From Xiphophorus maculatus (taxonomy: Eukaryota > Chordata > Actinopteri > Cyprinodontiformes > Poeciliidae), in NCBI RefSeq assembly GCF_002775205.1, contig NC_036456.1, positions 13,605,463 through 13,669,462 on the forward strand: DNA of 64,000 bases, written 5' to 3'. The position numbers and the translations under genes are program-made. The notes below the pieces were generated by a model. That model was not told where the DNA came from. It saw only the letters and a program-made list of their open reading frames with translations, and did not search any database. Shown piece after piece: positions 51-64,000 of the stretch (within the stretch, counting starts at the first letter, position 1; each line of letters begins with the position of its first letter).

Positions 51-911
51 CTGTGTTGCTGACAGAAACGGTCGCAGGATCTATGTGAAATTCTGCCATT
101 ACTGAAGGCTGGTTAACCAACGTCTCTGAGACAAGTGTATCATTAGGAGTAGAAGATGACTCAAATTCAAGGTCCACAGAGTTGATGATTGAGCCCGCTC
201 TGGAAAAGTGTAGTATAGTTAGTTAAAGTCTACAAATCTCTTAAGATGATGTTCACGATTTGTTGTGCAAACTACAAAGAAATTACCTGAATGCCACAGC
301 TCCAGTCTTTTGGAATGAAGGGAACACATTTCTGAAAAGTGGGTCAAGCTACATGAAAAAAAGAGAAGGAATTTAATTGTATAGTTTTTGAAAATGTATT
401 TCTCAGAATGCCGTTACTAAAAACATTAGTTCAGTGAATACATTTGGTATTTATTGGTTCAGGTAGAAAATCTAAAGTCTGAATTCTGAGTTTAAAGTCA
501 AAAATTCTGAGATTAATGTCAAAATTCTGAGTTTAATCAAATTCTGACTCAGAATTTGTTTTTTTCTTTTCGGTGGACCTAATCCTCTTCCGTATATTTA
601 AACCCACATTCTAGGTAAGCAGGACTTACAATATAAGGAGTATAAGATTCCTTTGTATATTCTTAGGTTAGAGGAAAATTTATTTCACATTTTTATGCAG
701 AAGAGACACAAAATATCCTTCATAGGCATACAATAGGATTTTAATTTATAATTTTTTTTTTTTTTTATGGAAATTGTTATGGGAGTAAGAAGGGTAAACA
801 TACACTATTCCTTATGTGTCCAGAACGTGTTTGGAATGCTGATGTTGATGGGTCTGCCAAATCTGTGGTGAATACTTCATCAGATTTAAAAATCAGCAGC
901 CTTATTAATGC
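51..911 (-). other. SEA domain 1 of gene D (three exons)
   Basis: Built from the last 36 codons of the PTS exon (804..911) plus exons 287..348 and 51..199. It holds FKSDEVFTTDLADP, then LDPLFRNVFPSFQKTGAVAF, then R-A-G-S-I-I-N-S-V-D-L-E-F. About 107 residues, near the usual SEA length. The G-S-I-I core fits the family's self-cleavage loop. Confidence 0.75.
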
Positions 912-3900
912 TGGAGGTGCAGTGGTTGTGGTTGGAGAATTTGTTGTTGTGGTTGGAGCAGCAGTAATTGTGGTTGTAGCTGCTGTTGTTGTGGTTGCAG
1001 ACGCTGTGGTTGTGGTTGGAGCCACTGTGCTTGTGGTTGGACCCTCTGTAGTTGTGGTTGGAGCCTCTGTAGTTGTGGTTGGAGCCTCTGTAGTTGTGGT
1101 TGGAGCCTCTGTAGTTGTGGTTGGGGCCACTGTGGTTGTGGTTGGAGCAGCTGTAGTCGTGGTTGGAGCAGCTGTTGTCATGGTTGGAGCTGTTGTGGTG
1201 GTGGTTGGAGCAGCTGTAGTCGTGGTTGGAGCAGCTGTTGTCGTGGTTGGAGCTGTTGTGGTTGGAGCTATTGTGGTTGTCGTTGAAGCTGCTGTTGTCG
1301 TGGTTGGAGCTGTTGTGGTTGGAGCTGTTGTGGTTGTCGTTGAAGCCGCTGTTGTTGTGGTTGGAGCAGCTGTCGTGGTTGGAGCAACTCTGATTGTGGT
1401 TGGAGCAGCTGTTGTCGTCGTTGGAGCAGCTGTTGTCGTGGTTGGAGTAGCTGTTGTCGTGGTTGGAGGTGCTGTTGTTGTGGTTGGGGCTGCTGTGGTT
1501 GTGGTTGGAGCTGTTGTGGTTGTCGTTGAAGCCACTGTTGTTGTGGTTGGAGCAGCTGTTGTTGTGGTTGGAGCTGCTGTGGTTGTGGTTGGGGCTGTTG
1601 TGGTTGTGGTTGGAGCTGTTGTGGTTGTGGTTGGAGCCGCTGTTGTTGTGGTGGGAGCTAATGTTGTGGTTTGAGCAACTGTGGTTGTGGTTGGAGCCGC
1701 TGTTGTTGTGGTTGAAGCAACTGTGATTGTGGTTGGAGCTGCTGTGGTTGTGGTTGTAGCAGCTGTTGTTGTGGTTGGAGTCGCTGTTGTTGTGGTTGGA
1801 GCAGCTGTTGTTGTGGATGGAGCTGTTATGGTTGTGGTTGGAACCGCTGTTGTTGTGGTTTGGGCTGCCGTGGATGTGGTTGGAGCAGCTGCTGTCGTGG
1901 TTGAAGCAGCTGTGATTGTGGTTGTGGTCGCTGTTGTTGTGGTTGGAGCAGCTGTTGTGGTTTGAGCAGCTGTGGTTGTGGTTGTAGCTGCTGTTGTGGT
2001 TGGAGCAGCTGTGGTTGTGGTTGGAACTGCTGTTGTTGTTGTTGGAGCAGATGTTGTGGTTGGAGAAGATGTTGTGGTTTGAGCAGCTGTGGTTGTGGTT
2101 GTAGCTGCTGTTGTGGTTGAAGCAGCAATTGTTGTGGTAGGAGGTGCTGTGGTTGTGGTTGGAGCAGCTCTGGTTGCGGGTGTAGCAACTGTTGTTGTGG
2201 TTGGAGCTCCCGTGTTTGTGGTTGGAGCTGCTGTGGTTGTGGTTGGAGCTGCCATGGTTGTGGTTGTAGCTTTTGTGGTTGTCATTGAAGCCGTTGTTGT
2301 GGTTGGAGCAACTGTGATTGTGGTTTGAGCATCTGTTGTCGTGGTTGGAGCAGCTGTTGTCGTGGTTGGAGCAGATGTTGTTGTGGTTGGAGGTGCTGTG
2401 GTTGTGGTTGTGGTTGGAGCCGCTGTTGTAGTCGTTGGAGCAGCTTTTGTTGTGGTTGGAGCTGTTGTGGTTGTGGTCATAGCCGCTGTTGTTGTGGTTG
2501 GAGTAGCTGTTGTTGTGGTTGGAGGTGCTGTGGTTGTAGTTGGAGCAGCTGTTGTTGTGGTTGGAGCTGTTGTGGTTGGAGCTCCTGTTGTTGTGGTTGG
2601 AGCAGCTGGGGTTGTAGTTGGAGTAGCTGTTGTTGTGGTTGGAGCATCTGTGGTTGTGGTTGGAGGTGCTGTGGTTGTAGTTGGAGCAGCTGTTGTTGTG
2701 GTTGGAGCTGTTGTGGTTGAGGTAAGAGCCGCTGTTGTTGTGGTTGGAGCAGCTGTTGTGGCTGGAGCAGCTGTTGTTGTGGTTGGAGCTCCTGTTGTTG
2801 TGGTTGGAGCAGCTGTGGTTGTGGTTGGAGCAGCTGTTGTTGTGGTTGGAGCATCTGTGGTTGTGGTTGGAGGTGCTGTTGTTGTGGTTGTGGTTGGAGC
2901 AGCTGTGGTTGTGGTTGGAGCTGCCGTGGTTGTGGTTGGAGCAGCTGTTGTTGTGGTTGAAGCAGCGCTTCTTGTGGTTGAAACAGCTGTTGTTGTGGTT
3001 GGAGCAGCTGTGGTTGTGGTTGTGGTTATAGCCGCTGTTGTTGTGGCTGGAGCAGCTGTTGTTGTGGTTGTAGCCGCTGTTGTTGTGGTTGGAGCAGCTG
3101 TGGTTGTGGTTGTGGTTATAGCCGCTGTTGTTGTGGCTGGAGCAGCTGTTGTTGTGGTTGGAGCTCCTGTTGTTGTGGTTGTAGCCGCTGTTGTTGTGGC
3201 TGGAGCAGCTGTTGTTGTCGTTGGAGCTCCTGTTGTTGTGGTTGGAGCAGCTGTGGTTGTGGTTGGAGCAGCTGTTGTTGTGGTTGTAGCAGCTGTGGTT
3301 GTGGTTGGAGCAGCTGTTGTTGTGGTTGGAGCAGCTGTTGTTGTGGTTGAAGCTCCTGTTGTTGTGGTTGGAGCAGCTGTGGTTGTGGTTCCAGCAGCTG
3401 TTGTTGTGGTTGGAGCATCTGTGGTTGTGGTTGGAGCAGCTGTTGTGGTTCCAGCAGCTGCTGTTGTGGTTGGAGCTCCTGTTGTTGTGGTTGGAGCAGC
3501 TGTGGTTGTGGTTGGAGCATCTGTTGTTGTGGTTGGAGCAGCTGTGGTTGTGGTTGGAGCATCTGTTGTTGTGGTTGGAGCAGCTGTGGTTGTGGTTGGA
3601 GCAGCTGTTGTTGTGGTTGGAGCAGCTGTTGTTGTGGTTGAAGCAGCTGTTGTTGTGGTTCCAGCAGCTGTGGTTGTGGTTACAGCCGCTGTTGTTGTGG
3701 TCGGAGTAGCTGTTGTTGTGGTTGGAGCTGCTGTGGTTGTGGTTGGAGCTCCTGTTGTTGTGGTTGGAACATCTGTGGTTGTGGTTGGAGCAGCTGTTGT
3801 TGTGGTTGGAGCTTTTGTGGTTGTGGTTGGAGCAGCTGTTGTTGTGGTTGAAGCAGCTGTTGTTGTGGCTGGAGCAGCTGCTGTTGTGGTTGGAGCTCCT

Positions 3901-6900
3901 GTTGTTGTGGTTGGAGCAGCTGTGGTTCTGGTTGGAGCAGCTGTTGTTGTGGTTGGAGCTCCTGTTGTTGTGGTTGGAACAGCTGTTGTTGTGGTTATAT
4001 CCGCTGTTGTTGTGGCTGGAGCTCCTGTTGTTGTGGTTGGAGCAGCTGTTGTTGTGTTTGGAGCATCTGTGGTTGTGGTTGGAGCTGCTGTGGTTGTGGT
4101 TGGAGCAGCTGTTGTTGTGTTTGGAGCATCTGTGGTCGTGGTTGGAGCTGCTGTGGTTGTGGTTGGAGCTCCTGTTGTTGTGGTTGGAGCAGCTGTGGTT
4201 GTGGTTGGAGCAGCTGTTGTTGTGGTTGGAGCATCTGTTGTTGTGGTTGGAGCAGCTGTAGTTGTGGTTGGAGCAGCTGTTGTTGTGGTTGGAGCAGATG
4301 TTGTTGTGGTTGGAGCTGTTGTGGTTGTGGTAGGAGCCGCTGTTGTTGTGGTTGGAGTAGCTGTTGTTGTGGTTGGAGCTGTTGTGGTTGGAACCGCTGT
4401 TGTTGTGGTTGGAGCATCTGTTGTGGTTGGAGCTGCCGTGGTTGTGGTTGGAGCAGCTGTTGTTGTGGTTGGAGATGTTGTGGTTGGAGCTCCTGTTGTT
4501 GTGGTTGGAGCAGCTGGGGTTGTAGTTGGAGTAGCTGTTGTTGTGGTTGGAGCATCTGTGGTTGTGGTTGGAGGTGCTGTGGTTGTAGTTGGAGCAGCTG
4601 TTGTTGTGGTTGGAGCTGTTGTGGTTGAGGTAAGAGCCGCTGTTGTTGTGGTTGGAGCAGCTGTTGTTGTGGCTGGAGCAGCTGTTGTTGTGGTTGGAGC
4701 TCCTGTTGTTGTGGTTGGAGCAGCTGTGGTTGTGGTTGGAGCAGCTGTTGTTGTGGTTGGAGCATCTGTGGTTGTGGTTGGAGGTGCTGTTGTTGTGGTT
4801 GTGGTTGGAGCAGCTGTGGTTGTGGTTGGAGCTGCCGTGGTTGTGGTTGGAGCAGCTGTTGTTGTGGTTGAAGCAGCGCTTCTTGTGGTTGAAGCAGCTG
4901 TTGTTGTGGTTGGAGCAGCTGTGGTTGTGGTTGTGGTTATAGCCGCTGTTGTTGTGGCTGGAGCAGCTGTTGTTGTGGTTGTAGCCGCTGTTGTTGTGGT
5001 TGGAGCAGCTGTTGTTGTGGTTGGAGCTCCTGTTGTTGTGGTTGTAGCCGCTGTTGTGGTTGGAGCAGCTGTTGTTGTGGTTGTGGTTATAGCCGCTGTT
5101 GTTGTGGCTGGAGCAGCTGTTGTTGTGGTTGGAGCTCCTGTTGTTGTGGTTGGAGCAGCTGTGGTTGTGGTTGGAGCAGCTGTTGTTGTGGTTGGAGCAG
5201 CTGTGGTTGTGGTTGGAGCAGCTGTTGTTGTGGTTGGAGCAGCTGTTGTTGTGGTTGAAGCTCCTCTTGTTGTGGTTGGAGCAGCTGTGGTTGTGGTTCC
5301 AGCAGCTGTTGTTGTGGTTGGAGCATCTGTGGTTGTGGTTGGAGCAGCTGTTGTCGTGGTTGGAGCAGCTGTGGTTGTGGTTGGGGCAGCTGTTGTTGTG
5401 GTTGGAGCAGCTGTTGTTGTGGTTGGAGCAGCTGTTGTTGTGGTTCCAGCAGCTGCTGTTGTGGTTGGAGCTCCTGTTGTTGTGGTTGGAGCAGCTGTGG
5501 TTGTGGTTGGAGCATCTGTTGTTGTGGTTGAAGCAGCTGTTGTTGTGGTTCCAGCAGCTGTTGTTGTGGTTGGAGCAGCTGTTGTTGTGGTTGGAGCAGC
5601 TGTTGTTGTGGTTGGAGCAGCTGTTGTTGTGGTTGAAGCAGCTGTTGTTGTGGTTCCAGCAGCTGTTGTTGTGGTTGGAGCAGCTGTTGTGGTTGAAGCA
5701 GCTGTTGTTGTGGTTGGAGCAGCTGTGGTTGTGGTTACAGCCGCTGTTGTTGTGGTCGGAGTAGCTGTTGTTGTGGTTGGAGCTGCTGTGGTTGTGGTTG
5801 GAGGTGCTGTGGTTGTGGTTGGAGCAGCTGTTGTTGTGGTTGGAGCTTTTGTGGTTGTGGTTGGAGCAGCTGTTGTTGTGGTTGAAGCAGCTGTTGTTGT
5901 GGCTGGAGCAGCTGCTGTTGTGGTTGGAGCTCCTGTTGTTGTGGTTGGAGCAGCTGTGGTTCTGGTTGGAGCAGCTGTTGTTGTGGTTGGAGCTCCTGTT
6001 GTTGTGGTTGGAGCAGCTGTTGTTGTGTTTGGAGCATCTGTGGTTGTGGTTGGAGCTGCTGTGGTTGTGGTTGGAGCAGCTGTTGTTGTGTTTGGAGCAT
6101 CTGTGGTTGTGGTTGGAGCTGCTGTGGTTGTGGTTGGAGCAGCTGTTGTTGTGGTTGGAGCAGATGTTGTTGTGGTTGGAGCTGTTGTGGTTGTGGTAGG
6201 AGCCGCTGTTGTTGTGGTTGGAGTAGCTGTTGTTGTGGTTGGAGCTGTTGTGGTTGGAACCGCTGTTGTTGTGGTTGGAGCATCTGTTGTGGTTGGAGCT
6301 GCCGTGGTTGTGGTTGGAGCAGCTGTTGTCGTGGTTGGAGCAGATGTTGTTGTGGTTGGAGCTGTTGTGGTTGTGGTAGGAGCCGCTGTTGTTTTGGTTG
6401 GAGCAGCTGTTGTTGTGGTTGGAGCTGTTGTGGTTGTGGTTGGAACCGCTGTTGTTGTGGTTGGAGCAGCTGTTGTGCTTGGAGCAGCTGTGGTTGTGGT
6501 TTCAGCTGCTTTTGTTGTGGTTAGTCCAGCTGTTGTGGATGTAGCAACTGTAGTGGTTGTTTTTGCATCAGCTGTACTTGATGGTGCTGTGGTTGTTGTT
6601 GGAGTTGCTGTTGTTTTGGATTTGGCTTCTGTGGTTGTTGTGCCACCAACTGTTGTTGTTACATAGAGTGTGGTTGCAGTTGCAGTTGGAACAGCTGTAG
6701 TTTGTACTGGAATAGCTCTGGTAGTTTCTGGAACAACTACAGTTGTTGGGGGAGGTTCTGTAGTTGTGTCTGACGTTGTTGTGGTAACAACTGCTGTTGT
6801 TGTGTCTGGAGTGCCTCTCGTTGTTGCCACTTTGTTTGTTGTTGAATAAGCACTTGTGATGGTTGTAGGATTTGTAGTTGTCTGTGCAGCCATCATCTTC

Positions 6901-7041
6901 TGAGCTGTTTATTTTTTAGAGTGGAAACATTTTAAATAATCAATATTTACATCATATGCTGTTGTATTTAGGCACTGGATTTATAACATCAAACTTACTT
7001 GTTAGTATTAGTAGCAGTGGTAACACTTTTTCAGGACCCAT
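51..7041 (-). CDS. Gene D: SEA-domain mucin-like protein, 3' part missing
   Basis: Coding exons in transcript order are 6999..7041, 804..6904, 287..348 and 51..199; the gene then runs off the left edge. The first exon encodes MGPEKVLPLLLILT, a short hydrophobic signal peptide, and ends in phase 1 at a GTAAGT donor. The 6.1-kb second exon starts at 6904 after an AAACAG acceptor. It encodes about 2,000 residues of Thr/Ala/Pro heptads and then the start of a SEA domain (FKSDEVFTTDLADPSTSAF). The two following exons, 62 and 149 nt, finish that domain and include A-G-S-I-I-N, which resembles the G-S-V-V-V autocleavage site of SEA domains. Exon sizes and phases match genes B and C exactly. By analogy the missing part should hold PTS2, SEA2, PTS3, SEA3 and a GPI signal. 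D is the most diverged of the four copies. The surface-mucin role is inferred from architecture. I did not check every repeat codon for stops by hand. Confidence 0.8.
468..594. mobile_element. MITE-like element with ATTCTGA motifs, copy 1
   Basis: In a gene D intron. Rich in repeated ATTCTGA and AATTCTGAG and ending in GGACCTAATCCTCTTCCGTA, which matches the terminal inverted repeat of the fuller copy at 8634-8783. The left end has decayed. Confidence 0.6.
912..6890 (-). repeat. PTS1 minisatellite of gene D
   Basis: 21-bp coding minisatellite. On the minus strand it encodes heptads such as TTTTAAP, TTTTGAP, TTTTDAP and TTTTTAP, with occasional 18-bp units (TTTAAP). The N-terminal end (about 6520-6890) is less regular and richer in Val, Ser, Glu and Lys. 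A higher-order repeat of about 1.9 kb is visible: the marker AGCAGCGCTT occurs at 2961 and again at 4872. Confidence 0.9.

Positions 7042-7247: not shown

Positions 7248-7251
<4 letters not shown>

Positions 7252-7330
<79 letters not shown>
7252..7330. repeat. (TA)n microsatellite
   Basis: Uninterrupted TA repeat of about 79 bp between two ends of the hairpin MITE family. Confidence 0.95.
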
Positions 7331-7333
<3 letters not shown>

Positions 7334-7408
7334 TACGGACCAAAAGTTTGGACACACCTTCCCATTTAATTCAGTGAGAAAGTGTGTCCAAACTTTTGGT
7401 CTGTACTG
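7331..7408. mobile_element. Short hairpin MITE
   Basis: Near-palindrome with arms CAGTACGGACCAAAAGTTTG (7331 on) and its complement ending at 7408. A degenerate end of the same family, CAGTACAGACGAAAAGTT, lies at 7220-7237 on the other side of the TA repeat. This fits a non-autonomous Tc1/mariner-like relic common in fish. Confidence 0.65.
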
Positions 7409-7413
7409 TATAT

Positions 7414-8104: not shown

Positions 8105-8143
<39 letters not shown>

Positions 8144-11613: not shown

Positions 11614-11668
11614 CCAGAGCAGTAAATCAATTCAAAGGTTCCTAAAATCTCTCTTGCTGCTCTTGAAA
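11614..11668 (-). other. Non-coding first exon of gene D
   Basis: Ends at 11614 on a GTAAGTAC donor. The start is estimated about 30 bp below the TATA box. It matches the gene B and C first exons in layout and partly in sequence (AGAGAG near the middle, CTCTGG at the donor). No ATG continues in frame, so it is 5' UTR. It splices to 7059, giving a 4.5-kb first intron. Confidence 0.65.
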
Positions 11669-11694
11669 CTTGCTTTTCTAGAGCTTGCTCAGCC

Positions 11695-11891
11695 TTATAT
11701 ATTAGCTCTAAGTTATTACCAGAATGACGCAGATATGAAATTTCTTTTGAAACAACATAGGTATTTCAGGAATGGCGAGGTAACAAATCCGGCTGTGCTA
11801 CTCCCCTTTTTTTATAAGTTTCTTTCATCTACACCACATTCACAGCTCAGTGATATTTCTTCGTTCCACCCAAGTAAACAATCCAGACGAT
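11695..11891 (-). promoter_or_regulatory. Promoter of gene D
   Basis: On the minus strand TATATAAGG lies at 11693-11701, just above the proposed first exon. Upstream are CTGCGTCAT (11724-11732, CRE/AP-1-like) and TTGTTTACTT (about 11875-11884, a forkhead-type site). All three are kept in genes B and C despite otherwise poor similarity. Confidence 0.6.
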
Positions 11892-12825
11892 TTTGCTTTT
11901 ATTTGTGGATGTGTTGCAGTTTTAAGTATGTCAAAATATAAAGATAAGACTTTGCTGCGAATAAAAACAACGAAAATATATTTTTTGGCTTAGTTTCATT
12001 TTGCTAAGGTACACGGTAAATTTGTTGAATGCAAATTGTGAGTAAGAAAATGCCAGAGGTGTGGCTGTAATACCATCTTTTGTGCAACGCTGACGGCTTT
12101 AGAAAATCCAAATTTAGAATAGATGCACTCTGTTCAGAAATCCATTATTAACTTGTGAAATTCTTAGTTGACAGGTCGGATCAGGCACAAAACAAACCAT
12201 GCTTAGGTTCACAAAAGGGATCACAAGAAGTCCACAGTTTGTGATCCTTAAATGAGAACTTGTTTTTTTGTGTAACGTCTTACAAAAGTTATGTCATAAC
12301 ATGGCAAGAAATGTCTGTTGTGGAGTCACACTGTAACAAAACATATATGAGAATTTCAAAACAATTTGAAATTTATTTTAAAAATATTCTGAGTTAAAAC
12401 AAGTGACATGGTTCCAATGCAACTATAAAATAAATTTGTAAACAAACATTTTACAATAAACTTTATTGTATAATTCTTTAATTACGATGTGTGAAATTAC
12501 AATTCACATGTGTTTGATTTAGACATTTAACTACATAGGAAAATGCTTTAACAAGTACAGTCATTCAACCACAAGGACAATTCGAGAGGAAACTAAAATC
12601 AGTAATTGCATGGCTTTCTTTTGAAATACTTTCTCTATGTGTCATTGGCAGATGAGTCAAATCTTGCCACTTCATAGTTTGCTGCATTAAATAAAAAGAC
12701 TGCTGAGCCTCAGACCAAAGTGACTGATCTATGACTAGCATTATAATTAACAGAAGTAGGATGTTGTTTTTGGTTGTTCCCATTCAAAAGTATGTCAGAT
12801 ACAGTAAATCATTCCTAATGCATTT

Positions 12826-13335
12826 TCCATCCGTTCATCCATCCATCCATCTGTCCATCCTTCCACCAGCATTTCAAGGCCAGCAGAGGCACATAGTCCC
12901 TCCAGCGTGTCTTGGGTCTACTTCTGGGTCTCCTCCCGGTGGGATGTGCCCAGAACACCTCACCAGGGAGGCATGCTAACCACACGGCAGAACCTCCTCC
13001 ACTGGCTCGTGTCAATGTGGAGAAGCAGCAGCTCTACTCTGAGTCCGTCCCGGATGACCGAGCTTCACCCTGTCTCTAAGGGAGAGTCCAGACACCCTGC
13101 GGATGAAACTCTTTCTGGCCACCAGTATCCATGATCTCGTTCTTTCTGTTCCTACCCAGAGCTGATGACTGCAGAGGAGGGTTGGACCGTATCTCAACCA
13201 GTAAATTGTGAGCTTGGCCTTTTGACTCACCTCCCTCTTCACCCCAACATACCGGTACCGAGTCCACATCACTACAGACCCAGAACAATTTAGCGTATCA
13301 ATTACCCCCTCCATTTTTCTCTTCACTCATGAACA
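12826..13335 (-). mobile_element. 5'-truncated Rex3-like (RTE) LINE fragment
   Basis: Minus-strand frames give reverse-transcriptase C-terminal motifs common in fish LINE proteins: LWVGTERTRS, RRVSGLSLRDRVK, then PGEVFWAHPTGRRPRSRPKT and RWRDYVPL in shifted frames. The 3' end is a (GATG)n tail (12827-12860), the hallmark of Rex3. Frames are broken, so it is an old, inactive 5'-truncated copy. Confidence 0.75.
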
Positions 13336-29812: not shown

Positions 29813-30909
29813 TTTCAATCTTTGTCCTAAAAAAGTTAACACATCCACACCTGTAAATTTACAGACAATAATTTCTTCTGCCAACTGAATAGATATGTTG
29901 ATTTTCCTTTAAAACAGCCATTTTAAAAACATTAAAAAAGAACATAATTTATAGTTATTTAGGTTAATTGTAAATAATAAATTATAACTAAATTGTAATA
30001 AATTGTATAAATTGTAAATAATCAATTGTAATAAATAATAAACTGTTTAAATAAAGATAAACACATTAAAGCAGCCAACAACTTTCCTCACAAGAATACA
30101 AAGAAAAATATTCAACACAATTTGTGAGTTTCTTACAGTCGATCCTCAAACAATTATCAAAACAGAAAACACATCAAATTGATTTGTTGATTTTCAACTT
30201 CTTATTAGTTTTTAAAAGTTTTTAACAAAAAACACTGTTCTTTAACTACTTGAAATTAAAATAAGCTGTACATATTTCCATATTGATGTAGTTAAAAAAT
30301 CTTTTATTAGAAATTTTTAAAAAAAGAACTAAATGTGTTAACTAAATGTGTGTTAATGTTTCATTTAAAGTTTTGCCAAGGTATTCTGTAGATTATATTT
30401 TGTCATCAAAATTTAGTTCCCAGTGATAATCTACACTTTATTGTTAATTAAAAGTTTTTAAATTGTTTTGACATATTTTAATCTAGCTAAAAGTCTGATT
30501 AAACTTCCCAGTCACCATTTTATCACAATATTGGCAAACTTACATATTTAGTAAGCTTGCCAATATTAAAGACACATAAATACCCGTAAAAGTCCAGTCA
30601 TTCATTACTGTTCACATTTGCATAAAATAGAAATGTATTTCTGACTCTGTCAGTGTTTTTTTACTTCTCTGTCAATGTATAGGAAATTTATTAGCAAAAG
30701 CACGTCACACAGCAGGCTTTTTTGTTTTTAAATTTTGTCTTTTTTTGAGTATGAACGGAGGAGGACATAGTCATTTTAAACAATGACAGTGAGAACCTTA
30801 AACACAAATCACATCAACCTAATTTTTTTAAAGAAAAGCTAAAACCTTAATTTTTCATACACATGTAAATTACAAAACCTGGCATTATTAGACTAAGGAA
30901 TGTACTTAC

Positions 30910-30970
30910 CCAAAGCAGTGGCTGGTTTCAAAAGTTCCTCTAATCCTCTCTTGCTTCTCCTCTAACTCTT
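30910..30970 (-). other. Non-coding first exon of gene C
   Basis: Donor GTAAGTAC just below 30910; the upper end is estimated from the TATA box. Splices to 29826, where GACAAAGATTG precedes the start codon by a few bases. Confidence 0.68.
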
Positions 30971-30996
30971 TGTCAACCAGTCTGAGCTGCTGAACC

Positions 30997-31149
30997 TTAT
31001 ATATTACCCGTCTATTGCAAGTATGACGCAGGTTAAAAAATTCATTTTTGAACTGTTGTTGGTGTCAGAGGAATGAAAACAACTCGCAAAGGTAATTTGG
31101 TTTGCATTCCTATTGTCCTCTCATTCCGTCAAAGTGAACAAACCAGACG
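30997..31149 (-). promoter_or_regulatory. Promoter of gene C
   Basis: Minus-strand TATATAAGG at 30995-31003, CTGCGTCAT at 31023-31031 and TTTGTTCACTT at about 31132-31142. Nearly identical to the gene B promoter. Confidence 0.65.

Positions 31150-32085: not shown

Positions 32086-32087
<2 letters not shown>
31150..32087. other. Distal upstream region of gene C
   Basis: AT-rich spacer, nearly identical to 53416-54370 upstream of gene B. No gene seen. Conservation between copies reflects recent duplication, not necessarily function. Confidence 0.6.

Positions 32088-32160
<73 letters not shown>
32088..32160. repeat. (AAT)n microsatellite upstream of gene C
   Basis: About 24 uninterrupted AAT units. 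The homologous site upstream of gene B (54374-54390) has only about six. Confidence 0.95.
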
Positions 32161-32162
<2 letters not shown>

Positions 32163-52114: not shown

Positions 52115-53161
52115 TTTCAATCTTTGTCCTAAAAAAGTTAACACAACACCTGTAAATTTACAGACAAGAGTTACTTCCACCAACTAAATAGATAAATTGA
52201 ATCTCCTTTAAAACAGCCATTTTAAAAACATAAAAAAAGAACTTAATTGATAGTTATTTAGGTTAATTGTAAATAATAAATTATAACTAAGTTGTATAAA
52301 TTGTAAATAATCAATTGTAATAAATAATGAACTGTTCAAGTAAAGATAAACACATTAAAGCAACCAACAACTTTCCTCACAAGAAGACAAAGAAAAATAT
52401 TCAACACAATTTGTGAGTTTCTTACAGTCGATCCTCAAACAATTATCAAAACAGGAAACACATCAAATTGATTTATTGATTTTCAACTTCTTCTTATTAG
52501 TTTTTTAAAGGTTTTTAACAAAAAACACTGTTCTTTAACTACTTGAAATTAAAATAAGCTGTACATATTTCCATTTTGTTGTAGTTAAAAAATCTTTTAT
52601 TAGAATTTTTTTTAAAAAGAATTAATGTGTTAACTAAACGTGTGTTAATGTTTCATTTAAAGTTTTGCCAAGGTATTCTGTAGATTATATTTTGTCATCA
52701 AAATTTAGTTTTTAAATTGTTTTGACATATTTTAATCTAGCTAAAAGTCTGATTAAACTTCCCAGTCACCATTTTATCACAATATTGGCAAACTTACATA
52801 TTTAGTAAGCTTGCCAATATTAAAGACACATAAATACGCGTAAAAGTCCAGTCATTTATTCCAATTCACATTTGCATAAAAAAGAAATGTATTTCTGACT
52901 CTATCAGTGTTTTTTACTTCTCTGTCAATGTATAGGAAATTTATTAGCAAAAGCACGTCACACAGCAGGCTTTTTTGTTTTTAAATTTTGTCTTTTAGGG
53001 GGATGAACGGAGGAGGACATAGTCATTTTAAACAATGACAGTGAGAACCTTAAACACAAATCACATCAACATAATTTTTTAAAAGAAAATCTAAAACCTT
53101 AATTTTTCATACACATGTAAATTACAAAACCTGGCATTATTAGACTAAGGAATGTACTTAC

Positions 53162-53220
53162 CCAAAGCAGTGGCTGGTTTAAAAAGTTCCTCTAACCCTC
53201 TCTTGCTTCTCCTCTAACTC
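53162..53220 (-). other. Non-coding first exon of gene B
   Basis: Donor GTAAGTAC just below 53162, TATA box about 30 bp above the estimated start. Splices to the acceptor before 52128. Only small differences from gene C. Confidence 0.68.
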
Positions 53221-53246
53221 TTGATCAACCAGTCTGCTGCTGAACC

Positions 53247-53415
53247 TTATATATTACCCTTATCTATTGCACCTTATCTATTGCAAGTATGACGCAGGTT
53301 AAAAAATTCATTTTTGAACTGTTGTTGGTGTCAGAGGAATGAAAACAACTCGCAAAGGTGATTTGGTTTGCATTCCTATTGTCCTCTCATTCCGTCAAAG
53401 TGAACAAACCAGACG
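53247..53415 (-). promoter_or_regulatory. Promoter of gene B
   Basis: Minus-strand TATATAAGG at 53245-53253, CTGCGTCAT at 53289-53297 and TTTGTTCACTT at about 53398-53408. It has a short extra duplication around the CTTATCTATTGCA motif compared with gene C. Confidence 0.65.
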
Positions 53416-54373
53416 CCATTATCTTGTTTTGTGTATGCAAAATGGTGCCTTCTAAACCTTCTAATAGAAGAGGGTTTCATAGTTACATAAGGCATTGTAC
53501 TGAATGACTTGGTCGTTTCAGTAATTTACAGTTTAATTTGCCCCACAAGTTCTTTTTTTTTTTTAAAGAAATTTGTATGTCTCTTTTTTTTAGCACAGAT
53601 GCTATGAAATCTACATTCTATAAAGCTGAACAGACTGTTTTGTACAAAGGTTTACGTTATAAAGTGTCTGATGTATTTAAAAACTAACTCAGACAAAAAT
53701 GCCTGTAGACAGACCTATTGTTAAAGATGAATAGCTTTTAAACTGCATGTGTGTTTTTGTGAGTAGTATTCACAAGAGCAAGAATGCAAAGGTGTGGCTG
53801 CGACATTATGTTTGTCTCACTTCGAACACTTCATTGTTACAAATAGCATTAAGCTATTAGACATTAAGACATCAGCATTAAGACATCATGTTTAGTTTTT
53901 TTAAACACTATAAAATTTGTTTATATATTGGCTCAAACTTGTTAAATGGAATAAACTTTATATTTAACAAAGAATTACGTTGTAGATCAACTTCTTGCAA
54001 TCCTGGAATATATTTTAGAATGCGCATAAGAGTATGGCAATAAAATGTACCGCAATAGTCGAAGATGTTTCTGTTGTAGATGTTGTTCAAGTTTAAAACA
54101 AAAGTTTTTGCTACATTATTTTATTTTATTTTGAGCTATTGCAGTTTTAAACCAGCTGGTTTAAAAAGAAACAAAAAGTTCACTGTTCAAAAAGTCCTAA
54201 ATTTTACATTTTCCACATTATTGGAAGAGTTACACAAACCATTTAACGACAAGTCAAAGCACAAATAAGGAAGTGAATGAATAAAATTTCATAAAGATAT
54301 TATTTTTCCCAACATTTAAGATAACATGTATACATATGCCTCATGTAGTTAAGATATGTGTGGTGGTTAAAAT

Positions 54374-54390
54374 ATAATAATAATAATAAT
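54374..54390. repeat. Short (AAT)n tract upstream of gene B
   Basis: Homologue of the long tract at 32088-32160. Confidence 0.85.
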
Positions 54391-54734
54391 AGTAACAGTA
54401 ATTGTGATAAATATATGTTTAGTGGTAGCAACAAACATTTATATCTACTTGTTTTCTCTAATACTAATATGAAAAATTTTACCAGTAATATCCGGTACAC
54501 TTTAAATCCAAAACCATACAAATTTACATACCAAATCTTTGATTTCAAATGTGTCCAAATGTTATCAATAAGTATTTTTTATTTAAGAACGTAATAACAT
54601 AGAACTTGCTATTGGGAAATCTCTTCATCCGGATATATAAATAGCAGCAAAACTGGCCAAACCACCACAAACATGCAGGAAGGAAGATCATAAAACAAGA
54701 TAACAGCTTGCTTACGTTAACATCAACTGAGAAA

Positions 54735-54970
54735 TGAAGCCTAGGCGCAAATTCAAACTGGAAGACTCTTTTATCCCCACTGAAGCGACCTGCCCACAAT
54801 CGCCGACCTATCAACGCCGGACCAAGCCACGTCACGTCCAATCATCGACCAAGTCCCAGCTGATAAGGACCTTCATTCATGGTGTCCTTCGCTCTCCAGC
54901 CGAGCTGTTCTGTCTGTTAGTAAACTCTTCTAATTGTCTTCTTATCTCCGTCTGAGTCTCTCCAGATTGA
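54735..54970 (+). mobile_element. LTR-like insertion, short copy
   Basis: About 235 bp, same family as 23761-24200 but shorter. It lies upstream of gene B and is absent from the matching place upstream of gene C (near 32492), so it is also a post-duplication insertion. A fossil. Confidence 0.5.
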
Positions 54971-55578
54971 ATTCTATAAATACACAAGTTTGTTTTCATT
55001 GTTGGTATTAGAGATTTACATTGTATTTGCTTGAGTGCGTGAACGACGTCAGCAGCAAACAAAGGATTCCTTTGGTCAGAAAAAGCTGAGAAAAAGGTGT
55101 CATTTCCTATTGGACGCCTTCATGACGATTTTAAAATGACTTAGATAAAAAAACAGCACAACTGAAAGAGTCTTTTATTTGACATTGGAAGATTTAAATT
55201 AACTTTTTGAAAACATTGTTTTTTTTTCTCTCACAGTTTGACTTTACATCAGACTAAACTCTAACCAGGTACGAAAAGAATTCTTCATTCGTTTTCAATT
55301 CAGTTAGTGCCAGAACATTTATAAAGACATTTTCTAATGATCATTTTTATTACTTCATTTAAATTCATTTAAATTCCAAGAAGGAATGATTAAAATAAAA
55401 GCATGTCTTTGGAAATGCTTTATGTGATTTGTAATTTCCTTTAAAAAATAAACAGAAAATAAAAAGCGAGATAAATTTTTAAAATTTAAATCAGACATCA
55501 GATTTAGTATGAAAAAAATCTGAGATTTTATTTTTCAGCTCTGTCACTCAGCCCAATGAGTAACTGCTCAGTGGTGTA

Positions 55579-56378: not shown

Positions 56379-59300
56379 TTAGTGTTGGCTTGACAGCATC
56401 CATGACAACAGGACCATGCAGAAAGCCATGATGAGACTGATCTTGTGGCTTACTCCACTTGACACTTCTGTAAACATTGAGAAAGCAAAACACGACGTCA
56501 ACAAAATGTTTGATAATAAAACGGTTTTTAAATGTATTTTATGATTTTTGTTTATGTAGATAATTATCTTGATATCTGAATTTATTGTAGCTTACGTGTG
56601 CCATCGACGAAAATACTAGCAGCATCAATGGTGAAGGCAGTGATGTTTGAAGCCGCCTTGACCAAAACTTGTGCAATTTCGGAGCCAGTAGGAGCAGATG
56701 CAGATACAAATCGAAGCTCCATTTCATTGATGATTGAGCCGCTTCTGTACAACAGAAAACATATGATGTGAGTTGAAAGAATTAAAAAAAATTTTTTTAG
56801 AATATTGTAAACGAATTACCTGAAAGACTTCACTGTTAGATCACTGAATGAAGAAAATGATTGCTTGTAGAATGGTTCAAGCTGAAGAAAGAAGAAAGTT
56901 TGAATCAAATCTCGATGCTAAGAGTGTAAATAAACAATGCTCAATGTGTAAATAACACAACTAAACAAAGTTGTGTCATTTAGAACATTGTGGAAATTAT
57001 TCATACCAAACATACAGAACAAGAAATATATTTAAGTAGAATCTCAATAAAAATGTACATTTATTTTTTGACAAAAAAAAAAGTCTTGCCACATTGCTTA
57101 ACAAGTGTAGAAAATATGTTGTGATCATTTGGCTGTTACAAATTTCAAAGAAAATTACTCACAGTTGACTTTAAAAGTGCAGCTCGGTTTTTAAATGCTG
57201 TTGAGGTCGAGTCGAGTAAATCAGCTGTAAAGGTCTCTCCGGGAGACCTAAAGGTCAGCTGCCTTACTGTTTGCACCACAGTTGTGGTTTTTGTTGTAAT
57301 GGTTGTAACTGCTGCAGTTGTTGCTTTACTGGCAGTTGACGTTCCAGGTTTTGTTGTTGCCACTCCGGTAGTGATGTTTGCAGCAGTTTCATTAGTTGTA
57401 GTTGTTGCATTGCTGGCAGTTGATGTTCCAGGTGTTGTTGTTGCCACTCCGGTAGTGATGTTTGCAGCAGTTTCATTAGTTGCAGTTGTTGCATTGCTGG
57501 CAGTTGACGTTCCAGGTGTTGTTGTTGCCACTCCGGTAGTGATGTTTGCAGCAGTTCCATTAGTTGTAGTTGTTGTATTTTGCAAAACTACTGGGGCTGA
57601 AGTTGCAGGTACACCTGCCAAACAAAGACAAGCATTGAAAGCAACATATTAGTGTGCAGAAAAACAACCAAAAAGTGAAATGTAAAATTGATCATTTTTC
57701 TTTACCATTACAATACATGAACTAATACTTATTTGGTAAAGTGAAAGCAATAAGTAATCAACTTAATATTTATCACAATAAAAATAAACTATGTAGTTAG
57801 TGGTTTTTTTTTTTTTAATCAGTCTGTGCATATTTTGGTCATTGAATTTTCTTTTTAGTTACTAATGTGCTGACAAATAAAGACAGGAATTGCTTGATTT
57901 ATTGTTTTAAAATTAACCTGAAAGTCAACTGCTTTTTCTTTATGGTGATAAAAATAACAATGAATGAAATAATTGTTTTTAAATCATATTTTAAAAGATA
58001 ATTAGCGATGACAAAGATTCTCAAAATTTCTCACTCTGCTTGGAAGTTTTCCAGTCATGTTCCACTGGGAGGTTAGCTTGGTAAAAACCAGTCCCCTGTT
58101 CTGTACTCACTTCATACAGAAGGCCTGCTCCCCCGGCTATAGAGTAATGATCGTTTACAGGAAGTGTGGATTGTGTTCAAGTTTGAAACCGCTGGCAAAG
58201 ATGTAGTTCCCTACTCCCCAGGAAGCTTCACTGAGCTGGCTCATTACATGGCCAATCGTTAGCGACTCTGTAAAGTCAAATCCAATCTTTTCAAACATCA
58301 GCAAAATCCACAACTCCTGCAATCAATAATTTCTCAGTAACCCAGGGTCCAGACCCTTTGTATGGAGCAAAGTGTAAAACAAGGGGCTTGTTTTACCAGG
58401 TGTCTTGGAAAATAAAACTTTCGCCTATTTACTGGGAAGAATGAACTGATAATGAAGGTTTCTGAGCAGGTGTTATACTTATGGAACTGATAACGGAGGT
58501 TTCAGGGAAGATGTTTTTCTCTTCCTTGTCCAACCGAAACTCCTTTGAACCGGGTTTGATTTAGGGACAGAGGTACCAATTAACCAGAGATGAGAGAAAC
58601 TTAGAGAAGATCCTACAGGAGAGAGATGGGTGGAAGGCACCGTGTACGTGACTGACAAGATATAAAAGGAGAATTGTATGAATCATCTGCCTAATTACAA
58701 AATTAGAGATACTTAGTGTCTTGCTACTCCGCAGAGAATTAGGATAATTAGAAATATAATTATGAAGTAAAATTACTTGAGTAACCTTAAATATATGGCT
58801 TTATGTGTTTCAAACACTTTGTTCTTACTTATTATTTGAATGGAATTCACGTCGAATGTGACATTCAAAGTGATGTTGGGGTTATTCACAGCCTCCTTCA
58901 GTGTTGCTTGAACATCTTCAGCCTTTGGGATTGTCTCAGCTGGTGTGGTTTTATTGAACTCTACGCCAACCTCTGCTTGAGTACCATTCATTCGAAATCT
59001 GGTGAAGGCTGGTCTGAAAAAAGAGATCAACACTCAAACTGATTTCAAATATTAAAATTCTATGTATGTGGTGGAAATAATAAATTATGTGTAATATGTC
59101 TTTCAGATTATTTTGTTCCTAGTTGGTCATTACCACTATAAATGTAAATAAAACATACAAGTAGATGAACTTGACTAATAAAGTCAAAAGCTTACATACT
59201 TGAAGGAAACGATAAAACTCCGGATGAAGAGAATTCCATATCTTGACCTGTAGATGATATCATACTGTAGAAGAGAAAACATGTTAAAATTCATTGTAAA

Positions 59301-62300
59301 ATAATCCTCAGATTAAACAATTTAAATAATAAAGGATTTTGAATGGACCACTCACCACTGCTATCACTTTTACTTCAAGAGCTTTGAACTGCACACTACT
59401 TCTGTTATTTAGCTCTTCAACAAATGGTTCAACCACAGTTGCTGCAACAACAAACACTGGAGGAGGAGCTTGAGTTGTTGTTGTTGTAGTCGTCACAAGA
59501 GTAGTTAGTGTTGTTGGAGTAGTCTTTGGTTTGGTTGGAGCAGCTGTTGTTGTAGTTGTAGCTGCTGTAGTTGTAGTTGAAGCAGTTGTTATTGTTGTTG
59601 GAGCTACTGTAGTTGTGGTTGTTGCATTGCTGGCAGTTGACGTTACAGGTGTTGTTGTTGCTACTCCGGTAGTGATGTTTGCAGTAGTTTCATTAGTTGT
59701 AGTTGTTGTATTTTGCAAAACTACTGGGGCTGAAGTTGCAGGTACACCTGCCAAACAAAGACAAGCATTGAAAGTAACATATTAGTGTGCAGAAAAACAA
59801 CAAAAAAGTGAAATGTAAAATTGATCATTTTTCTTTACCATTACAATACATGAACTAATACTTATTTGGTGGAGTGAAAGCAATAAGTAATCAACTTAAT
59901 ATTTATCACAATAAAAATAAACTATGTAGTTAGTGTTTTTTTGTTTTTTTTTAATCAGTCTGTGCATATTTTGGTCATTGAATTTTCTTTAGAGTTACTA
60001 ATGTGCTGACAAATAAAGACAGGAATTGCTTGATTTATTGTTTTAAAATTAACCTGAAAGTCAACTGCTTTTTCTTTATGGTGATAAAAATAACAATGAA
60101 TGAAATAATTGTTTTTAAATCATATTTTAAAAGATAATTAGCGATGACAAAGATTCTCAAAATTTCTCACTCTGCTTGGAAGTTTTCCAGTCATGTTCCA
60201 CTGGGAGGTTAGCTTGGTAAAAACCAGTCCCCTGTTCTGTACTCACTTCATACAGAAGGCCTGCTCCCCCGGCTATAGAGTAATGATCGTTTACAGGAAG
60301 TGTGGATTGTGTTCAAGTTCGAAACCGCTGGCAAAGATGTAGTTCCCTACTCCCCAGGAAGCTTCACTGAGCTGGCTCATTACATGGCCAATCGTTAGCG
60401 ACTCTGTAAAGTCAAATCCAATCTTTTCAAACATCAGCAAAATCCACAACTCCTGCAATCAATAATTTCTCAGTAACCCAGGGTCCAGACCCTTTGTATG
60501 GAGCAAAGTGTAAAACAAGGGGCTTGTTTTACCAGGTGTCTTGGAAAATAAAACTTTCGCTTATTTACTGGGAAGAATGAACTGATAATGAAGGTTTCTG
60601 AGCAGGCGTTATACTTATGGAACTGATAACGGAGGTTTCAGGGAAGATGTTTTTTTCTTCCTTGTCCAACCAAAACTTCTTTGAACCGGGTTTGATTTAG
60701 GGACAGAGGTACCAATTAACCAGAGATGAGAGAAACTTAGAGAAGATCCTACAGGAGAGAGATGGGTGGAAGGCACCGTGTACGTGACTGATAAGATATA
60801 AAAGGAGAATTGTATGAATCATCTGCCTAATTACAAAATTAGAGATACTTAGTGTCATGCTACTCCGCAGAGAATTAGGATAATTAGAAATATAATTATG
60901 GAGTAAAATTACTTGAGTAACCTTAAATATATGGCTTTATGTGTTTCAAACACTTTGTTCTTACTTATTATTTGAATGGAATTCACGTCGAATGTGACAT
61001 TCAAAGTGGAGTTGGGGTTATTCACAGCCTCCTTCAGTGTTGCTTGAACATCTTCAGCCTTTGGGATTGTCTCAGCTGGTGTGGTTTTATTGAACTCTAC
61101 GCCAACCTCTGCTTGAGTACCATTCATTCGAAATCTGGTGAAGGCTGGTCTGAAAAAAAAGATCAACACTCAAACTGATTTCAAATATTAAAATTCTATG
61201 TTTGTGGTGGAAATAATAAATTATGTGTAATATGTCTTTCAGATTATGTTATTCCTAGTTGGTCATTACCACTATAAACGTAAATAAAACATACAAGTAG
61301 ATGAACTTGACTAATAAAGTCAAAAGCTAACATACTTGAAGGAAATGATAAAACTCCGGATGAAGAGAATTCCATATCTTGCGCTGTAGATGATATCATA
61401 CTGTAGAACAGAAAACATGTTAAAATTCATTGTAAAATAATCCTCAGATTAAACAATTTAAATAATAAAGGATTTTGAATGAACCACTCACCACTGCTAT
61501 CACTTTTACTTCAAGTGCTTTGAACTGCACACTCTGTCTGTCATTTAGCTCTTCAACAAATGGTTCAACCACAGTTGCTGCAACAACAAACACTGGAGGA
61601 GGAGCTTGAGTTGTTGTTGTTGTAGTCGTCACAAGAGTAGTTGGTGTTGTTGGAGTAGTCTTTGGTTTGGTGGGAGCAGCTGTTGTTGTAGTTGTAGCTG
61701 CTGCAGTTGTAGTTGAAGCAGTTGTTATTGTGGTTGGCGCTACTGTTGTTGTGGTTGTAGCTGCTGTAGTTGTAGTGGAAGCAGTTGTAATTGTTGTTGG
61801 AGCTATTGTTGTTGTGGTTGTAGGTGCTGTAGTTGTAGTTGAAGCAGTTGTTATTGTTGTTAGAGCTACTGTTGTTGTGGTTGTAGGTGCTGTAGTTGTA
61901 GTTGAAGCAGTTGTTGTTGTTGGAGCTACTGTTGTTGTGGTTGTAGGTGCTGTAGTTGTAGTTGAAGCAGTTGTTATTGTTGTTGGAGCTACTGTTGTTG
62001 TGGTTGTAGGTGCTGTAGTTGTAGTTGAAGCAGTTGTTATTGTTGTTGGAGCTACTGTTGTTGTGGTTGGAGCTTCTATGGTTGTGGTTGGAGCCGCTGT
62101 TGTAGTTGGAGAAGCTGTGGTTGTGGTTGGAGTAGCTGTGGTTGTAGTTGGAGCTGCTGTTGTTGCGCTTGGAGCAGCTGTGGTTGTTGTTGTAGCTACT
62201 GTGGTTGTGGTTGTAGCTGCTGTGGTTGTGGTTGTAGCTGCTGTGGTTGTGGTTGGAGCCGCTGTGGTTGTGGTTGGAGCAGCTGTTGTTGTTGGAGCCG

Positions 62301-64000
62301 CTGTGGTTGTGGTTGTAGCTACTGTGCTTGTTGTTGGAGCAGCTGTGGTTGTGGTTGGAGCCTCTGTTGTTGTGGTTGGAGCAGCTGTGGTTGTGGTTGT
62401 AGCTACTGTGGTTGTGGTTGGAGCAGCTGTGGTTGTTGTTGGAGCCGCTGTGGTTGTAGCTACTGTGGTTGTGGTTGTAGCCGCTGTGGTTGTGGTTGGG
62501 GAGGCTGTGGTTGTTGTTGGAGCAGCTGTGGTTGTAGCTACTGTGGTTGTGGTTGGAGCAGCTGTGGTTGTTGTTGGAGCCGCTGTGGTTTTAGCTACTG
62601 TGGTTGTGGTTGTAGCCGCTGTGGTTGTGGTTGGAGCCGCTGTGGTTGTGGTTGGAGCCGCTGTGGTTGTGGTTGTAGCTGCTGTGGTTGTTGTTGGAGC
62701 CGCTGTGGTTGAGGTTGGAGCAGCTGTGGTTGTGGTTGGAGCCTCTGTTGTTGTAGTTGGAGCAACTGTGGTTGTGGTTGTAGCTGCTGTGGTTGTGGTT
62801 GGAGCAGCTGTGGTTGTGGTTGGAGCAGCTGTGGTTGTAGTTGTAGCTACTGTGATTGTGGTTGTAGCCGCTGTGGTTGTGGTTGGAGCAGCTGTGGTTG
62901 TGGTTGGAGCCTCTGTTGTAGTTGGAGCAGCTGTGGTTGTAGCTACTGTGGTTGTGGTTGGAGCCGCTGTGGTTTTAGCTACTGTGGTTGTGGTTGTAGC
63001 AGCTGTGGTTGTGGTTGGAGCCTCTGTTGTTGTGGTTGGAGCCGCTGTGGTTGTGGTTGGAGCCTCTGTTGTTGTGGTTGGAGCCGCTGTGGTTGTGGTT
63101 GTAGCTGCTGTGGTTGTTGTTGGAGCCGCTGTGGTTGAGGTTGGAGCAGCTGTGGTTGTGGTTGGAGCCTCTGTTGTTGTAGTTGGAGCAACTGTGGTTG
63201 TGGTTGTAGCTGCTGTGGTTGTGGTTGGAGCAGTTGTGGTTGTGGTTGGAGCAGCTGTGGTTGTGGTTGGAGCCTCTGTTGTTGTAGTTGGAGCAACTGT
63301 GGTTGTGGTTGTAGCTGCTGTGGTTGTGGTTGGAGCAGTTGTGGTTGTGGTTGGAGCAGCTGTGGTTGTTGTAGGAGCAGCTGTGGTTGTTGTTGGAGCA
63401 GCTGTGGTTGTGGTTGGAGCCTCTGTTGTTGTGGTTGGAGCAGCTGTGGTTGTGGTTGTAGCTACTGTGGTTGTGGTTGGAGCAGCTGTGGTTGTTGTTG
63501 TAGCCGCTGTGGTTGTGGTTGGGGAGGCTGTGGTTGTTGTTGGAGCAGCTGTGGTTGTAGCTACTGTGGTTGTGGTTGGAGCAGCTGTGGTTGTTGTTGG
63601 AGCCGCTGTGGTTTTAGCTACTGTGGTTGTGGTTGTAGCCGCTGTGGTTGTGGTTGGAGCCGCTGTGGTTGTGGTTGTAGCTGCTGTGGTTGTTGTTGGA
63701 GCCGCTGTGGTTGAGGTTGGAGCAGCTGTGGTTGTGGTTGGAGCCTCTGTTGTTGTAGTTGGAGCAACTGTGGTTGTGGTTGTAGCTGCTGTGGTTGTGG
63801 TTGGAGCAGTTGTGGTTGTGGTTGGAGCAGCTGTGGTTGTTGTAGGAGCAGCTGTGGTTGTGGTTGGAGCAGCTGTGGTTGTAGTTGTAGCTACTGTGAT
63901 TGTGGTTGTAGCCGCTGTGGTTGTGGTTGGAGCAGCTGTGGTTGTGGTTGGAGCCTCTGTTGTAGTTGGAGCAGCTGTGGTTGTAGCTACTGTGGTTGTG
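56379..64000 (-). CDS. Gene A: GPI-anchored SEA mucin-like protein, 5' part missing
   Basis: Coding exons visible: 61492..64000 (continues right), 61336..61400, 60965..61149, 59356..59747, 59200..59264, 58829..59013, 57163..57614, 56820..56881, 56596..56744 and 56379..56467. The part seen encodes a Thr/Ala/Pro repeat, a SEA2-type domain, a short chimeric PTS, a second nearly identical SEA2-type domain, PTS3, SEA3 and a GPI-type C-terminus (SSGVSHK, hydrophobic run, SSQH-stop). It therefore has one more PTS+SEA2 module than B or C, from a 2,136-bp tandem duplication. The frame stays open through all junctions because every PTS exon begins in phase 1 and ends in phase 0. Exons 57163..57614 to 56379..56467 align with gene B at a constant spacing of about 20.99 kb. 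The signal peptide, PTS1 and SEA1 are presumed to lie beyond 64000. Confidence 0.82.
56596..57264 (-). other. SEA domain 3 of gene A
   Basis: Segments 57163..57264, 56820..56881 and 56596..56744. Nearly identical to gene B SEA3, including R-S-G-S-I-I-N. Confidence 0.75.
57265..57600 (-). repeat. PTS3 84-bp repeat of gene A
   Basis: Three 28-residue units homologous to gene B 36275-36600, with NETAANITTG- and SNATT-type sequons. The three units are more alike than in gene B, which suggests recent homogenisation. Confidence 0.85.
58829..59460 (-). other. SEA-like domain 2b of gene A
   Basis: Segments 59356..59460, 59200..59264 and 58829..59013. Differs from 2a by only a few residues (for example YRSRYG against YSARYG). 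Confidence 0.7.
59461..59747 (-). repeat. Chimeric PTS3/PTS2 repeat of gene A
   Basis: Starts like PTS3 (S-V-P-A-T-S-A-P-V-V-L-Q-N-T, N-E-T, N-I-T) and switches near 59610-59630 to the PTS2 cassette (VAPTTITTASTTTT), ending APTKPKTTPTT. It is a recombination product between the two exon types. Confidence 0.85.
60965..61596 (-). other. SEA-like domain 2a of gene A
   Basis: Segments 61492..61596, 61336..61400 and 60965..61149. Same sequence type as gene B SEA2 (VFVVAATVVEPFVEEL, RYGILFIRSFIIS). One half of the 2,136-bp duplication. Confidence 0.7.
61597..64000 (-). repeat. PTS minisatellite of gene A (continues right)
   Basis: From about 62060 to the right edge it is the 21-bp heptad repeat (AAP, EAP, VAT and VAK units). 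From 61.65 to 62.06 kb it carries the VAPTTITTASTTTT cassette type seen in gene B PTS2. The frame is continuous with the SEA exon ending at 61492. Confidence 0.85.

Follow-up and report, generated by a model that had tools for sequence, protein, structure and literature searches.

Membrane mucins are normally described as proteins that combine a SEA domain, a transmembrane (TM) helix, and a cytoplasmic tail. In the stretch of Xiphophorus maculatus DNA analyzed here (the window; 64 kb, positions 13,605,463 to 13,669,462 of contig NC_036456.1, numbered below from its first base), we found four paralogous mucin genes (A, B, C, and D), all on the minus strand, in which SEA domains alternate with tracts rich in proline, threonine, and serine (PTS). 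MUC16 (CA125) is similar in that it is described as having several SEA domains with P/S/T-rich linkers between them (PMC10829539), and the best match of our SEA profile in the PDB, 1ivz (E = 7.8e-5), is the SEA domain of the murine MUC16 homolog according to a figure legend and the references of the same paper. Unlike the genes reported here, which have a glycosylphosphatidylinositol (GPI)-type end and three or four SEA domains, MUC16 is described with its own TM helix and a 32-aa tail (PMC4456727), and with 19 SEA repeats in a revised model (PMC10829539); a further difference is that the PTS exons at this locus reach up to 3,935 codons.

Other known proteins resemble the array in part. MUC1, the MUC13-type mucins, and fish I-Muc share a PTS tract followed by a membrane-near SEA domain, but are described with a single SEA domain, a TM segment, and a cytoplasmic tail (PMC3680472, PMC4456727); MUC1 also has G-S at the self-cleavage position, its motif being given as GSVVV (PMC4456727). 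IMPG1 and IMPG2, for which two SEA domains and a self-cleavage motif in only one of them are described (PMC9478142), are similar by description rather than by sequence, and are retinal proteoglycans. ADGRF1 (GPR110), a seven-helix receptor and not a mucin, contains a SEA domain to which our profile aligns across RFRxGSI (E = 8.2e-5). Based on its domains and PTS tracts, the array belongs to the SEA mucins, without the tail that is a feature of the classical ones. The preliminary description of this stretch had set the alternation of SEA and Thr-rich segments, together with the tail-less end, against the classical membrane mucins; the alternation turns out not to be unique, as it is also described for the repeats of human MUC16 (PMC10829539), and what sets the array apart is that the TM helix and tail have apparently been lost.

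From the gene models, SEA homology, purifying selection, common promoter element, and mosaic structure presented below, we propose, at a probability of roughly 0.6, that the window contains a tandem cluster of giant SEA mucins that would be O-glycosylated, held by GPI, self-cut at SEA1 and SEA3, and able to serve as a barrier, in a cluster that grows by crossover. In this model, each giant cell-surface mucin would begin with a signal peptide, its Thr/Ala/Pro heptad tracts (TTTTAAP) would become densely O-glycosylated rods with the SEA domains between them, and its hydrophobic C-terminal peptide would be exchanged for a GPI lipid, giving an outer-leaflet chain that lacks a cytoplasmic tail. SEA1 and SEA3 would be cut between G and S of GSIIN, with the halves held non-covalently, and could thus act as breakable joints from which the outer rod is shed under strain; SEA2, without the site, would be an uncut spacer.

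Gene Models and Domain Plan

The plus strand of the window is GT-rich, the complement of Thr-rich coding sequence, which places the genes on the minus strand. Gene B (35390-52114) has 11 coding exons that encode 4,647 aa, with no internal stops and a terminal stop, and gene C (16699-29812) has 11 coding exons on the same plan that encode 3,608 aa, also with no internal stops. These lengths are the same as those for which the preliminary description had noted closure of the frame. Two genes are partial: the first four coding exons of gene D (51-7041; 2,118 aa visible, no stops) are followed by the start of the window, and the last 10 coding exons of gene A (56379-64000; 1,383 aa visible, no internal stops) are preceded by its end. 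The complete plan, seen in B and C, consists of a predicted signal peptide, PTS1, SEA1, PTS2, SEA2, PTS3, SEA3, and a short hydrophobic end. The visible part of D comprises the signal peptide, PTS1, and SEA1 only, and that of A comprises, in order, PTS2, SEA2, a hybrid PTS, a second SEA2, PTS3, SEA3, and the end. Gene A therefore deviates from the B/C plan in carrying an additional SEA2 module after the first SEA2 and before PTS3. An earlier claim of four same-strand paralogs with one exon plan is thus correct as to strand and as to the complete genes B and C, but needs qualification for the partial genes A and D, and for the extra module in A.

Exon lengths agree between copies, which is independent support for the gene models. 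The second and third exons of each SEA domain (exons b and c) measure 62 and 149 nt in SEA1 (B, C, and D) and SEA3 (A, B, and C), and 65 and 182-185 nt in the four SEA2 copies. The initial coding exon has a length of 43 nt wherever it is visible (B, C, and D), as the final one has of 89 nt (A, B, and C). Part a of every SEA domain is formed by the end of a PTS exon. The SEA domains of MUC16 likewise have introns at comparable positions. The phases at the three junctions of a module are 0, 2, and 1, and every PTS+SEA module has phase 1 at both of its ends. For the first acceptor of D, an alternative site 5 bases downstream of the chosen AG gave 12 stops, and the chosen AG opens the frame. Weighing against the models, the exons were built from splice consensus and reading frame in the genomic sequence of this one window, and the 32 splice pairs were picked by eye for GT-AG and frame, so that GT-AG at all of them is not independent evidence.

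The first coding exon of B (52072-52114), which encodes the predicted signal peptide and ends in phase 1, is equal in length to those of C (29770-29812) and D (6999-7041). By Kyte-Doolittle hydropathy, the N-terminus is hydrophobic in all three genes in which it lies within the window (B, C, and D). However, the predicted signal peptide is short, and it is less hydrophobic in D, which detracts from the assignment.

The large Pro/Thr/Ser-rich tandem-repeat tract of membrane mucins is present, with a 21-nt repeat unit and a composition, in the visible parts of A to D, of 43-55% T, 8-12% P, and only 2-5% S. The PTS1 exon of B (40162-51968; 11,807 nt) consists mainly of TTTTAAP heptads with SEA1 part a at its end. 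Its counterparts in C (24339-29665; 5,327 nt) and D (804-6904; 6,101 nt) also include SEA1 part a, and the PTS2 exons of B (38359-39239) and C (18745-22988; 4,244 nt) include SEA2 part a. The PTS3 exon of B (36173-36624), which includes SEA3 part a, and that of A (57163-57614) consist of N-X-T-rich repeats with a unit of 84 nt (28 aa), in contrast to PTS1 with its TTTTAAP heptads, and these membrane-near segments of A and B may also bear N-glycans. The repeats of C PTS3 (17598-18052) differ from those of A and B.

SEA Domains

In B, the b and c exons are located at 39704-39765 (62 nt) and 39467-39615 (149 nt) for SEA1, 38203-38267 (65 nt) and 37832-38016 (185 nt) for SEA2, and 35831-35892 (62 nt) and 35607-35755 (149 nt) for SEA3. 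The corresponding exons of C lie within 18230-18627 for SEA2 (65 and 182 nt) and 16908-17196 for SEA3 (62 and 149 nt), and those of D SEA1 are at 287-348 and 51-199. Eight of the ten SEA copies, i.e., all except the second SEA2 of A and SEA3 of B, were compared with the Pfam SEA model (PF01390), for which the gathering cut-off is 26.4 bits. Five of the eight passed, including SEA1 of B (35.7 bits), C (35.6), and D (36.5), SEA2 of C (36.9), and SEA3 of A (33.9), which is one residue different from SEA3 of B. Each of the three domains thus has at least one copy above the cut-off, and the second domain, earlier termed only SEA2-like, is a SEA domain as well, with the C copy above 26.4 bits.

A profile made from all ten copies matched, besides 1ivz, SEA structures of ADGRF1 in the PDB (8.2e-5 and 4e-4), while a search with the single sequence of D SEA1 found 1ivz only at 0.011. 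Relative to B SEA1, identity is 39-41% for SEA3 and 19-21% for SEA2. The self-cleavage position shows the same division, with GSIIN in all six SEA1 and SEA3 copies and in none of the four SEA2 copies, all four of which also lack GSxxV there. GSxxV, with V or I at each x, is described as the motif of self-cleaving SEA domains (PMC9478142), and GSVVV or GSIVA in ADGRF1/ADGRF5 is said to give self-cleavage (PMC6954182). GSIIN matches GSxxV at the first four positions and has N in place of V at the fifth. On the basis of this motif, SEA1 and SEA3 likely self-cleave.

Several aspects of this comparison speak against the proposed model. Three of the eight scanned copies, i.e., SEA2 of B (23.2 bits), the first SEA2 of A (23.5), and SEA3 of C (25.3), narrowly miss the Pfam cut-off. 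In the PDB, agrin (0.31) and MUC1 (0.64, not significant) match the profile no better than unrelated chains, whose values begin at 0.32. Moreover, the N at the fifth position of the motif makes self-cleavage uncertain. When viral contigs were searched with the SEA alignment, 18 pattern matches came up, with no relative among them.

Coding Frame and Selection

Thr-rich repeats rarely mutate to stops, and the array might accordingly be explained as repeat noise, or as partly dead with some copies being pseudogenes. Since at least two changes separate ACN, GCN, and CCN codons from a stop, the openness of a frame carries little weight by itself. Consistent with this alternative, C PTS1 also lacks stops in one of its three opposite-strand frames, and A and B are too alike to read selection between them (0-1.3 synonymous and 1-4.7 non-synonymous changes across their SEA domains). 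The coding frame, however, is free of stops in all six long PTS exons examined (PTS1 of B, C, and D; PTS2 of A, B, and C), whereas the other two same-strand frames contain 2 to 64 stops each (64 and 9 in B PTS1). In four PTS exons, a diagonal scan detected long near-identical internal duplications, all 23 of whose shifts are multiples of 3, although they should not be counted as 23 separate events; among the 16 shifts that are listed, 14 do not correspond to a whole number of 21-nt units. Megablast returned no internal duplications of at least 300 bases, which the diagonal scan did detect.

The strongest argument for coding beyond chance comes from the non-repeat SEA exons of B and C, which are under purifying selection. 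Synonymous divergence (dS) between the two genes is 0.96 in SEA2 and 0.83 in SEA3, with ratios of non-synonymous to synonymous divergence (dN/dS) of 0.38 and 0.37. Identity across introns 5 to 10, by comparison, is only 45-64%. The dN/dS of SEA1 in D is 0.47 against B and 0.38 against C. By contrast, comparison of the first and second SEA2 of A gives a dN/dS of 1.97 from about 10 changes (1.3 synonymous, 8.7 non-synonymous), and the first gives 1.05 against B SEA2 from about 6 changes. These two ratios weigh against the proposed model, and that of 1.97 could mean relaxed constraint after duplication. Taken together, the stop-free frames, the shifts in multiples of 3, the dN/dS of about 0.37 between B and C, and the promoter element that D has in common with them make repeat noise or a decayed array very improbable, and the earlier judgment that the array is hard to dismiss as noise holds.

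C-Terminus and Membrane Anchor

The last exons of B (35390-35478) and C (16699-16787), each of 89 nt, encode the C-terminal residues DGTQVSSGVSHKISLIMAFCMVLLSWMLSSQH in B and DGTQTSSGASHKISLITAFSMVLLSWLLSTQQ in C. By hydropathy, the ends of A, B, and C consist of small residues (SSG), a polar spacer, and a hydrophobic stretch, which is 12-16 residues long by a segment rule and is followed by 4-8 residues without K or R before the stop. The ends of A and B are identical, 22 of 29 residues are conserved between B and C, and the stop position is common to all three genes, while the flanks of B and C beyond the stop are only 47-60% identical. The authors of PredGPI describe small residues at the attachment site, a spacer, and a hydrophobic tail to the end of the chain as the GPI layout (PMC2571997). 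The tail-less end at this locus fits such a signal, and GPI attachment is plausible. Under a home-made GPI rule with a tail hydropathy threshold of 1.2, lowered to 1.0 after C had failed, A and B pass at 1.2 with SSG-VSHKISL-tail (tail 1.35). Two results of this rule weigh against the assignment: C, with a tail of 1.10, fails at 1.2 and passes only at the threshold set afterwards, and 4 of 241 control open reading frame ends pass at either threshold. The GPI-anchored end proposed in the preliminary description is therefore supported as to its tail-less hydrophobic form without K or R after it, whereas attachment itself is a prediction, for which C misses the initial threshold.

The same mucins could instead be held by a short TM segment with a tail of 4-8 residues, or by an alternatively spliced exon that encodes a TM segment and tail. 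The hydrophobic stretch may remain uncleaved, and in gilthead sea bream, I-Muc and Muc13 are described as having SEA adjoining the TM segment and tails of 26-52 aa (PMC3680472). However, the stretch is preceded by SSG and a polar spacer and is not followed by basic stop-transfer residues, and the exact position of the stop is conserved in diverged copies. By hydropathy, the ends of A, B, and C do not show the TM helix and cytoplasmic tail of classical transmembrane mucins. As for an alternative 3′ exon, a crude scan of 35606-31100 for B, 56595-53400 for A, and 16907-11800 for C revealed no 20-residue hydrophobic segment followed by basic residues. We therefore regard a short TM anchor or an alternative TM exon as unlikely.

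GPI anchors can themselves be released. This, and the presence of two SEA domains with GSIIN, would also agree with mucins that are shed or secreted through processing of the C-terminal peptide or SEA, with the product mostly in mucus and only transiently attached to the membrane. Against this, conservation of the hydrophobic end suggests that the chain is, at least at one point, attached to the membrane, and the proteins contain hardly any cysteine (one in B and none in C over the whole chain; one in A and none in D in the visible parts), which by Cys count is too few for the VWD, C8, CysD, or cystine-knot domains of gel-forming mucins. A mainly secreted product thus seems improbable, and the GPI-held form remains our preferred interpretation.

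Among the matches listed in open-licence PMC, as represented by titles and the starts of abstracts and with subscription papers and automatic annotations lying outside, none described a GPI-anchored SEA mucin. Of the three listed papers with all three search terms, two concern, by title, matriptase/prostasin and one trypsin-like proteases, and one 2026 paper on atypical mucins in Drosophila uses "GPI-anchored" once in the text available (PMC13373891). We tentatively raise the possibility, without regarding it as the likelier case, that the genes represent a separate class of membrane mucins, with a lipid anchor in place of the TM helix and tail, cut and uncut SEA joints, and genes born by repeat crossover. 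If true, a tail-less, lipid-held multi-SEA mucin would decouple the barrier role from signaling through the tail, and could have two routes of release, namely SEA separation or anchor cleavage.

Mosaic Gene B and Proposed Growth of the Array

The 5′ half of B resembles C, with introns 1, 3, and 4 being 100, 96.6, and 98.7% identical and a SEA1 dS of 0.11, whereas its 3′ half resembles A, with introns that are 97-100% identical. Homology of B to C extends to base 39200, and homology to A begins at 38534; the repeats between these bases were masked, which confines the switch to the PTS2 exon without pinpointing it. Homology likewise exists between the A-B and B-C intergenic regions (51946-55355 vs. 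29643-32878, 92-96%). Gene B looks like a crossover product, with a C-like 5′ part and an A-like 3′ part joined within PTS2. A single unequal crossover between the PTS2 exons of adjacent A and C genes would yield the order A, hybrid, C, together with a copied intergenic stretch, as is seen. However, identity within 29643-59531 is 98.3% in the 3′ part and 92-96% in the 5′ and intergenic parts, which does not fit a single crossover date, and the unequal identities of the halves would require later conversion or a second event.

A further duplication is present in A, where self-comparison shows a 2.03-kb stretch that is doubled (57477-59506 and 59610-61642; 97.9% identity over 2,033 columns). The second SEA2 module (57477-59506) is an in-frame duplicate of 59610-61642, and the hybrid exon has PTS3 at its start and PTS2/SEA2 at its end. 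We suggest that the cluster grows via unequal crossing-over within the mucin repeats, in which the frame would be kept because every PTS+SEA module runs between equal phases. If true, a single step could give rise to a new mucin with an intact frame, as in gene B, and the array suggests how repeat tracts can seed gene birth.

Intron 2 is less similar between B and C (83.5%) and contains an insertion in C of about 430 bp (23758-24201), so that it measures 823 nt compared with 396 nt in B. The ends of this insertion match the A-B intergenic region (54732-54971) at 89-90.5%, like a dispersed element.

Promoter and Flanking Sequences

B, C, and D share, without any difference, a TATA element, TAATATATAAGG, and a splice donor, GGGTAAGTACATT, located 91-97 bp downstream of it, from which a non-coding first exon is predicted in these genes. 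The predicted promoter and non-coding exon span 53162-53256 in B (TATA at 53256, donor GT at 53161), 30910-31006 in C (TATA at 31006, donor GT at 30909), and 11614-11704 in D (TATA at 11704, donor GT at 11613). The distance from the end of this exon to the ATG is 1.0-1.1 kb in B and C and 4.6 kb in D. Since B and C are recent duplicates in this region, D provides the informative comparison.

Between the genes, minus-strand open reading frames at 12818-13326 give only the impression of a broken retrotransposon reverse transcriptase, and two of them had no Pfam match up to E = 0.1. Ten intergenic open reading frames compared with Pfam gave four weak matches (E = 0.0088 to 0.079) and none at gathering score, and there were no Rfam matches at gathering score. 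Just upstream of the ATG exon of D, a long run of AT dinucleotides occupies 7250-7400, and the sequence beside it appears to resemble the end of a fish Tc1-type transposon.

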